A DNA stretch of 64,000 bases from Sphingosinicella sp. YJ22. Lineage in GTDB: Bacteria; Pseudomonadota; Alphaproteobacteria; Sphingomonadales; Sphingomonadaceae. A program made the position numbers and the translations under genes. The notes below the pieces were generated by a model. That model did no database searches and was not told the origin of the DNA. It saw only the letters and a list, made by a program, of their open reading frames with translations. Position 1 is the first letter of the stretch. Each line of letters begins with the position of its first letter. Of this stretch, positions 47,384 to 49,325 are shown in pieces. Where the stretch lies: positions 1-64,000 of the forward strand of contig NZ_JAANPA010000010.1 in NCBI RefSeq assembly GCF_011320075.1, given 5' to 3'.

Positions 47384-48730
47384 TTAGGCTGAGCTCACCG
47401 CAAGCGCGTCCTCGCGCAGCCAGTCGGACAGGGCTTCGCGAGCGCGGTCGGTGTAGCGTTTCTTGCGCTCGGCCTTCTTCACCTTGCCCTCGACCGGCGG
47501 GAACAGGCCGAAATTGACGTTCATCGGCTGATAGCTCGCGGCATCAGCGCCGCCGGTGATGTGGCCGAGCAGCGCGCCCAAAGCGGTCGTCACCGGCGGC
47601 GGCGCCAAGTCGTGCCCGGCCCGCTCTGCGGCGGCGAAACGCCCCGCCAGCAGGCCGATCGCGGCGCTCTCGACATAGCCTTCGCAGCCGGTGATCTGGC
47701 CGGCGAAGCGGATGTGCGGCGCCGCCTTCAGCCGCAGCGATCCGTCGAGCAGCTGCGGCGAATTGAGGAAAGTGTTGCGGTGGAGGCCGCCCAGTCGCGC
47801 GAACTCGGCATTCTCGAGGCCCGGGATGGTGCGGAACAGCCGCACCTGCTCGGCATGCTTCAGCTTGGTCTGGAAGCCGACCATATTCCACAAGGTGCCG
47901 AGCGCATTGTCCTGGCGCAGCTGGACGACCGCATAGGGCCAACGGCCGGTTTTCGGATCGTCGAGGCCGACCGGCTTCATCGGGCCGTAGCGCAACGTGT
48001 CCTCGCCGCGCTCCGCCATCACCTCGATCGGCATGCAGCCCTCGAAATAGGGCGTGTCCTTCTCCCATTCGCGGAACTCGGTCTTGTCGCCGGCGAGCAG
48101 GCCTTCGCGGAAGGCGACATACTGCTCCTTGGTCATCGGGCAATTGATGTAGTCGCCGTCCGACCCTTCCGCATTCTTGTCCCAGCGCGACGCCATCCAA
48201 GCGACGTCCATGTCGATCGAGTCCTTGTAGACGATCGGCGCGATGGCATCGAAGAAGGCGAGGGAGTCGCGCCCCGTCGCGGCCGCGATCGACTCGGCGA
48301 GCGGAGCGGCGGTGAGCGGGCCGGTGGCGATGATCGCGGGATGATCGGGCAGGCCGTCGACCCGCTCGCGCACCACCTCGATCAGTGGATGCTCCTGCAA
48401 GGCGCGGGTGACGGCTTCCGAGAAGCCATCGCGGTCGACCGCGAGCGCGGAGCCCGCCGGCACCCGGTGCGCGTCGCCGCAGCGCATGATCAGCGAATCG
48501 AGCGCGCGCATCTCGGCGTGCAGGAGCCCCACCGCATTGTTCTCGGCATCGTCCGAGCGGAAGCTGTTGGAGCAGACCAGCTCGGCCAGCCCATCCGTGT
48601 GATGGGCGGGCGTCATGTCGCCGCCGCCGCGCATTTCCGACAGGCGCACGGGCACGCCCGCCTGCGCCAGCTGCCATGCCGCCTCCGAGCCCGCGAGGCC
48701 CCCGCCGATGATGTGAACCCGATCCGTCAT
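47384..48730 (-). CDS. trmFO: Methylenetetrahydrofolate-tRNA-(uracil-5-)-methyltransferase
   Basis: TrmFO makes 5-methyluridine-54 in the T-loop of tRNAs using methylenetetrahydrofolate and FAD. The 448-aa protein has the FAD motif [70 protein letters not shown] and [16 protein letters not shown]. Note that the nearby tRNA-like element at 49,254 lacks the U54 that TrmFO acts on. Confidence 0.96.
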
Positions 48731-48815: not shown

Positions 48816-49253
48816 ATGGCCCGGCGCGTCTTCACCATCGGCTACGAGCAGACCACCGTCGCCGAACTGATCGCGGCGCTTCAGGCTGCGGGCGTCGAGC
48901 GGGTCGTCGACGTGCGCGCGGTCGCCGCGTCGCGGCGGCCCGGCTTCTCCAAGACGGCGCTCGGCGGCGCCCTCCAGGAAGCGGGCATCGCCTACGAGCA
49001 TCTGCGCGCGCTCGGCACGCCGAAGGAAGGCCGCGAGGCCGCCAAGCGCGGCGACCAGGCGACGCTTGAGCGTGTCTATGCCGGCCAGCTCGAGCTGCCC
49101 GAGGCGCAGGCGGCCGCAGCCATCCTCCTCTACCGCATCGACGCCCAGCCGACCGCGCTGCTGTGCTACGAGCGGGAGCCGGCGGACTGCCACCGAAGCA
49201 TGCTGGTCGCTGCCATCGCCGGGAACTCGGAGGTGATCGACCTGTTCGCCTGA
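48816..49253 (+). CDS. DUF488 protein
   Basis: A 145-aa DUF488 protein: RRVFTIGYEQTTVAELIAALQAAGVERVVDVRAVAASRRPGFSKTAL (read in parts), YEHLRALGTPKEGREAAK and the C-terminal ALLCYEREPADCHRSMLVAAI. The conserved CYE..P..CHR element suggests a metal or nucleic-acid site; the function is not established. Its stop codon directly abuts the CCA end of the convergent tRNA-like element. Confidence 0.9.
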   Translation: MARRVFTIGYEQTTVAELIAALQAAGVERVVDVRAVAASRRPGFSKTALGGALQEAGIAYEHLRALGTPKEGREAAKRGDQATLERVYAGQLELPEAQAAAAILLYRIDAQPTALLCYEREPADCHRSMLVAAIAGNSEVIDLFA

Positions 49254-49325
49254 TGGTGGGCAGAGCAGGCGTCGAGCCTGCATCGAGCCGTGATCTGCGG
49301 CCCGCTCTCGTTGAGCTATCTGCCC
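49254..49325 (-). ncRNA. Non-canonical tRNA-like cloverleaf with encoded CCA
   Basis: Read leftward from 49325: acceptor GGGCAGA/TCTGCCC (7 perfect pairs), D-arm GCTC-AACGA-GAGC (5-base loop, no GG), anticodon arm GGGCCG-CAGATCA-CGGCTC (6 pairs, one G-T), 3-base variable loop, T-arm GCAGG-CTCGACG-CCTGC, discriminator A and CCA at 49256-49254. All stems hold, but U33, U54 and G18G19 are absent, so it is unlikely to decode normally. It could be a degenerate tRNA or a repurposed tRNA-like RNA. Confidence 0.65.

Follow-up and report, generated by a model that had tools for sequence, protein, structure and literature searches.

The window, that is, the whole 64,000-nucleotide stretch of Sphingosinicella sp. 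YJ22 that was analyzed, carries a gene for a tRNA-like RNA next to a DUF488 gene (Table 1). Two covariance models were utilized throughout, R1 made from the window element alone and R2 made from all seven members of the family described below.

Table 1. Features at the locus, with positions in the window
Feature	Position	Strand	Evidence and remarks
tRNA-like RNA gene, 72 nt, encoded CCA	49254..49325	(-)	ARAGORN, fold, model R2 (89 bits; one of the seven sequences from which R2 was built)
Acceptor stem, 5' strand GGGCAGA	49319..49325	(-)	Paired with 49258-49264; pairs 5, 6 and 7 double-changed among members
Acceptor stem, 3' strand TCTGCCC	49258..49264	(-)	Pairing in alignment
A73 + encoded CCA	49254..49257	(-)	Identical in 7/7 members
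D-arm, 4 bp, 5-nt loop AACGA without GG	49304..49316	(-)	Fold, alignment
Anticodon arm, 5 bp conserved + one extra pair in the window copy	49286..49302	(-)	Fold, alignment, pairs
Anticodon loop CAGATCA: A33, G34 A35 U36, C37, A38	49291..49297	(-)	C-R-GAT-Y-A in 7/7 members; 8% mean divergence
T-arm, 5 bp, loop CTCGACG	49265..49281	(-)	Covarying stem; 55% divergent loop
DUF488 gene (PF04343)	48816..49253	(+)	Stop codon abuts CCA end; outside the element
trmFO, tRNA m5U54 methyltransferase	47384..48730	(-)	Neighbor, outside the element

The window copy folded at -38.5 kcal/mol against a shuffle mean of -24.6 kcal/mol (z -4.04), with 0 of 200 dinucleotide shuffles as good, and was called by ARAGORN as tRNA-Ile with anticodon gat (GAT). 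The coordinates, strand, cloverleaf and encoded CCA of the initial annotation were thereby confirmed, and its description of the loops (a 5-base D-loop that lacks GG, and the absence of U33 and U54) was right for the window copy. The 6-bp anticodon stem and 3-base variable loop that it gave were found in this copy, but the family plan is a 5-bp stem with a 4-base variable loop; the sixth pair (columns 26/44) is G26-C44 in the window copy, G-U in one member and unpaired in five. Two bases separate the acceptor stem and the D-stem. U33, the D-loop GG and the T-loop TTC are each absent from all seven members, the window copy retaining T55-C56 within a U55-C56-G57-A58 run that the six relatives lack. 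The 5-nt D-loop without GG is present in 4/7 members.

With the Rfam tRNA model RF00005 the part of the window around the element stayed empty even at E 10, and the loci of the six relatives at E 5. Over the whole genome it gave 44 matches, 42 of them over the cut-off, and the element was absent among them. ARAGORN calls two of the seven members and misses five. A 122-aa open reading frame on the + strand overlaps the element and is presumably spurious, as is common on the strand opposite a tRNA gene. Neither a sigma-70-like promoter nor a terminator was found beside the window copy.

The trmFO gene (U54 methylation) adjoins DUF488 and lies near an RNA without U54; other members have no such neighbor, and its closeness to the element is probably due to chance. 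Gene order common to the window and genome G025 breaks just past DUF488, at the element (window:49254). Homologs had been expected downstream of DUF488, but this linkage is not conserved and R2 placed the other members elsewhere. A normal tRNA at this locus in related genomes, named in the initial annotation as the mark of a simple pseudogene, was not seen: ARAGORN, which itself misses 5/7 members, found no tRNA around DUF488 (up to 1.5 kb each side) in the 24 other genomes of the genus in which DUF488 was found.

Relatives and base pairing

Searches with R1 over 26 genomes of the genus located three further genes with the anticodon loop CAGATTA (G018, G003 and G021), and over 397 genomes of the family three more, in G331, G296 and G204, which all belong to a second genus. 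With R2 over 36 genomes of the two genera, the seven members scored 85.7-96.1 bits against at most 73.2 bits for any other match, the best being an ordinary tRNA, so that the lowest member lies 12.5 bits above the best ordinary tRNA; the R2 scores of the members are favored, as the seven built the model. The carriers are 7/36 genomes, or 4/26 and 3/10 by genus, some of the 36 being incomplete. When R2 was run at E 1e-17 with stricter filters over the 397 family genomes, five genomes passed, all of them known carriers.

The model searches covered the family. A pattern search found the RNA in 2/396 genomes of the order, one of which was the window genome. A pattern scan of genome contigs, which missed G018, G204 and G296 and is thus not a full census, returned six loci, namely three members (G021, G331 and G003) and three tRNA-Ile(GAT) genes. 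In the 26 genus genomes a plain DNA search yielded nothing beyond short matches and failed to recover the three relatives located there by R1. Among the weak R1 matches, 12 of 28 unfetched places were inspected for distant members, none of which was called by ARAGORN; seven 87-nt R1 matches of 30-33.5 bits lie outside these 12.

The members fall into two types, one made up of the window copy and the second-genus members (76-82% identity between them; support for the group 80) and one of the three remaining members (84-87% identity, support 79). In an IleRS tree calculated from the first half of the protein in 28 genomes the carriers are scattered, so that losses, transfer or both are needed. 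Two of the carriers, G204 and G296, are single-contig genomes.

In the second genus the tRNA-like gene adjoins a phytase-like gene (PF13449) in 3/3 members, and a gene which we take to be rpmB is adjacent in two of them and separated by one more gene in G296. Six other genomes of this genus showed no such RNA beside the phytase-like gene when read by eye, some of the stretches differing in their neighbors, and none was found by R2. The regions around the members gave no protein match across the two genera, nor among the members of the first genus, where G021 provided 3.8 kb only and G003 ends close by. In G018 (L210:9690-13010) the element adjoins a gene for an exosortase A-associated O-glycosylation ligase (TIGR03097), and a gene that weakly matches asparagine synthase is nearby. 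A TGTCCC...GGGACA-like palindrome, possibly an operator or hairpin, lies ∼60-80 bases upstream in 3/3 second-genus genomes (L207, L208 and L209). No toxin family was detected among the scanned neighbors (10 + 9 proteins, part of the neighbors), which gave one weak sub-cut-off match to a DISARM phospholipase-like family.

Mobile origins were also considered and rejected. Searches with blastn gave no plasmid match at E 1e-5, and at E 1 only short partial matches, to two records each in phages and plasmids. A pattern scan of viral contigs returned 11 loci, all 11 of which were called tRNA-Ile(GAT) by ARAGORN. These predicted viral genes (L195-L205) carry C33; their loops are mostly usual, two of them being without the T-loop TTC.

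In the alignment of the seven members 144/147 stem cells are paired (98%), the exceptions being three single cells in G018, G021 and G204, and 7/21 pairs are changed on both sides. None of 500 shuffles reached the paired percentage, the number of double-change cells or the covariation score, one reached the number of double-change pairs and three the number of pair types, with the caveat for the covariation tool that related sequences can exceed shuffles. RNAalifold unaided predicted the same cloverleaf for the seven; the consensus fold and the pairs agree on a cloverleaf with CCA, which is encoded in 7/7 members. Folded singly, 6/7 sequences were cloverleaf-like, while the minimum-energy fold of G003 alone was not. 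In simulations of unconstrained drift 0/4000 runs at each of three settings kept 144 pairs, with a stem divergence of 0.17 against 0.195 observed and under a simple descent model.

Mean pairwise divergence was 8% for the anticodon loop, 20% for the stems, 23% for the D-loop, 32% for the variable loop and 55% for the T-loop. The rebuilt anticodon loop C-R-GAU-Y-A is common to 7/7 members and is the most conserved loop. Compensatory stem changes in homologs, which the initial annotation had proposed as a check, were found among the members (the 7/21 double-changed pairs). Its statement that only the loops had drifted is not entirely accurate; the stems have changed too, mostly in step, and the anticodon loop has changed least among the loops. 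Identity among the three second-genus genomes is 85-90% over the 72 nt and drops to 48-56% over the 50 bases after the gene. Upstream identity is 61-75% in the 40 bases before the gene and 55-61% further up; the 100 bases beyond these stretches, mostly neighbor gene, are 72-78% identical. Computation on these sequences thus supports the view that the element is real, conserved, accessory and under selection for base pairing.

Relation to tRNA-Ile2 and isoleucine identity

A DNA search of 98 genomes returned the element itself and CAT tRNA genes in six others, from other families of the order, at 73-79% identity over 55-75 bases. These genes we take to be tRNA-Ile2, with lysidine at C34. The window genome has its own Ile2 gene at contig C6:2151, and an ordinary Ile2, called CAT by ARAGORN, is present in each of the seven carrier genomes. 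The anticodon stem (GGCCG/CGGCT), D-stem and acceptor end are common to Ile2 and the element, whose anticodon stem disagrees with that of tRNA-Ile(GAU) from a genus relative. Compared with Ile2, all seven members differ in having R33, G34 and Y37, in lacking the D-loop GG and in a variable loop that is shorter by one base; the TTC of the T-loop is lost as well. A tree from the short alignment placed Ile2 and tRNA-Ile(GAU) on one side of a split from the members (support 68).

In G025 an Ile2 gene lies ∼9 kb from DUF488, and the protein adjacent to it matches one beside Ile2 on contig C6 of the window genome (56% over 607 aa). As Ile2 still stands beside its old neighbor gene, as in G025, the element is an additional gene rather than the original Ile2 in decay. 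A common descent of all seven members from tRNA-Ile2(CAU) is supported by these computations. The Ile2 of the window genome (C6:2151-2224, L104) is without an encoded CCA and ends GGGCCCAC-GCC; CCA is encoded in the Ile2 of most fetched genus relatives and in the tRNA-like element.

Bacterial isoleucine identity positions, as listed in an excerpt of PMC9976931, include A73, C4-G69, U12-A23, C29-G41, G34, A35, U36 and A38, each of which is present in 7/7 members. The retained set is weak evidence alone, since all of it except G34 was inherited from Ile2. The same excerpt lists A37 (as t6A37) as a bacterial determinant with a role elsewhere called variable (PMC9976931). Position 37 is T or C in 7/7 members, so A37 is absent, and the isoleucine determinants of the D-loop cannot be placed in the altered D-loop of the element; charging may therefore be poor. 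In 6/7 members the T-stem contains A51-U63, a pair that a passage of PMC4052509 connects with weak binding of EF-Tu in staphylococci; it also occurs in the Ile2 of 2/7 carriers.

A second, eukaryal-type IleRS that does not need t6A37 was sought and none was seen in 28 of the 36 genomes searched with R2: 25/28 have one IleRS over the cut-off and three (G000, G021 and G387) gave fragments only. The weaker IleRS matches in the 28 genomes are presumably ValRS and the like. Unusual bases at position 33 were also found in predicted cellular tRNA-Ile(GAT) genes, with G33 in L190 and L194, both otherwise ordinary, and C33 in L193. Because G33 occurs in these two otherwise ordinary genes, a purine at 33 is not proof of an exit from decoding. 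The genes for tRNA-Ile(GAU) and tRNA-Ala(TGC) were not found in the sequence of the window genome, probably because the rRNA spacer is missing from it; a genus relative (L161) has a normal tRNA-Ile(GAU) adjoining tRNA-Ala(TGC). One place in G204 inspected for a normal tRNA-Ile(GAU) was a tRNA-Arg.

Possible roles of the RNA

As U33, A37 and a contact between the D-loop and T-loop are all lacking, the element is not expected to serve ordinary decoding, and the tRNA-like RNA has probably left it. On the simplest reading the RNA would still meet IleRS or another tRNA-Ile reader, and not the ribosome. The explanation that we prefer, at a probability of roughly 0.58, is a conserved accessory RNA that arose from a duplicated Ile2, is bound by IleRS or an Ile reader and acts outside the ribosome as an isoleucyl donor, decoy or sensor. 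The proposal in the initial annotation of a CCA-ended RNA kept for a job outside decoding is to this extent partly supported, by the relatives and by the compensatory changes.

In this explanation Ile2 (CAU), the minor isoleucine tRNA, was duplicated and one copy became an accessory structured RNA beside an intact Ile2. That copy has kept its acceptor stem and A73-CCA as well as the D-stem and the anticodon arm, whereas its anticodon loop was rebuilt to R33-GAU-Y37, the D-loop GG was lost and the T-loop is under little constraint. Replacement of C34 by G34 would turn CAU into GAU, which IleRS could read without lysidine, and the retention of G34-A35-U36, A38, A73, C4-G69, U12-A23 and C29-G41 suggests binding by IleRS or another tRNA-Ile-reading protein. 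Off the ribosome the RNA would most likely be an isoleucyl donor that avoids both EF-Tu and the ribosome, or else serve some protein that binds Ile-tRNA as its decoy or sensor. A narrower version is possible but doubtful, namely a dedicated isoleucyl-RNA of sphingomonads that came off the ribosome when U33, A37 and the elbow were lost, that IleRS reads without lysidine after the change of CAU to GAU, and that serves as donor for non-ribosomal aminoacyl transfer. Points against the preferred explanation are the loss of A37, the two otherwise ordinary tRNA-Ile(GAT) genes with G33, the translation by tRNA-Pyl and some mitochondrial tRNAs without GG and T-Psi-C (PMC7609411), the non-cloverleaf fold of G003 alone, the lack of a recognizable promoter or terminator beside the window copy, the patchy presence, and the failure to find a partner or a neighbor shared between the genera.

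Decay of a tRNA-Ile2 copy into a simple pseudogene could account for loops without canonical bases, for the failure of the Rfam tRNA model, for the patchy presence, for the three unpaired cells among the members and for the aberrant fold of G003 alone. It is nevertheless highly improbable, since the same rebuilt anticodon loop and double-changed stems recur in seven genomes with far-apart IleRS (first-half tree), unconstrained simulation never retained as many pairs, and each carrier has a normal Ile2. An unusual tRNA-Ile that still translates, reading AUU/AUC despite its odd loops, would suit GAU, which is the normal isoleucine anticodon. Position 33 is irregular in predicted tRNA-Ile(GAT) genes too (C33 in 11/11 viral and 1/3 cellular, G33 in 2/3 cellular), tRNA-Pyl is active in translation although it lacks GG and T-Psi-C, according to a passage of PMC7609411, and no normal tRNA-Ile(GAU) was found in the window genome's sequence, which probably lacks the rRNA spacer. 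We regard this reading as quite unlikely, as purine 33, pyrimidine 37 and the loss of GG occur together in 7/7 members, the genus relative L161 has the normal tRNA-Ile(GAU) beside tRNA-Ala(TGC), and 29/36 related genomes (some incomplete) are without the gene by R2, which makes it dispensable for decoding in the group.

A decoy or sponge, directed at a protein that attacks or modifies Ile-tRNA (a toxin, anticodon nuclease or acetyltransferase) or at a tRNA-modifying enzyme, would suit the accessory distribution, the different neighbors within the genus, and a conserved anticodon arm and acceptor end with a free T-loop. The toxin-free set of scanned neighbors (10 + 9 proteins, part of the neighbors) and positions 33 and 37, which are unlike those of the tRNA to be mimicked, speak against it, and it appears unlikely. 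The conserved upstream blocks in the three second-genus genomes, namely the palindrome mentioned above and, close to the 5' end, a stretch reading CTATSGG, could instead belong to a longer regulatory RNA with a tRNA-like domain, as proposed for the tRNA-Other of B. cereus; this is very unlikely given the sharp drop in identity past the 3' end (48-56%) and the CCA end in 7/7 members, which suits a free 3' end.

Of known kinds, tRNA-Other of B. cereus and the staphylococcal non-proteinogenic tRNA-Gly are the nearest. The former is described in an excerpt of PMC3399842 as a pseudo-tRNA with a Trp anticodon that flanks a genomic island and is reported within larger RNAs. Like the element, it is a tRNA-like gene extra to the normal set and present in some strains only, and is reported there to be non-functional in translation; it differs in its host (Bacillus) and Trp anticodon from an RNA of Ile2 origin with GAU in sphingomonads. 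The staphylococcal tRNA-Gly shares the loss of GG 18-19 and A51-U63, which are thought to weaken EF-Tu binding in the relevant passage of PMC4052509. Its use is in the cell-wall bridge, whereas the element has also lost U33 and its candidate amino acid is isoleucine.

The likeness to tRNA-Pyl drawn in the initial annotation was not borne out. GG and T-Psi-C are dispensable for translation in tRNA-Pyl and in certain mitochondrial tRNAs (PMC7609411, in part), and the 5-nt D-loop without GG in 4/7 members and a T-loop without the T-Psi-C bases in most recall tRNA-Pyl. The tRNA-Pyl plan has one base or none between acceptor stem and D-stem, a long anticodon stem, CUA, U33 and A37, whereas the element family has two bases, a 5-bp anticodon stem (the sixth pair being unconserved), GAU, R33 and Y37.

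No report of such an RNA in sphingomonads was found in the part of the open-access literature that was surveyed. Similar genes may have been overlooked elsewhere, as none of the seven members is recognized by the Rfam tRNA model and five escape ARAGORN. Known bacterial RNAs that have left translation and yet retain the tRNA fold are few, and the family shows which parts of a tRNA are still selected after a likely exit: the acceptor end, the D-stem and the anticodon arm, but not the T-loop.
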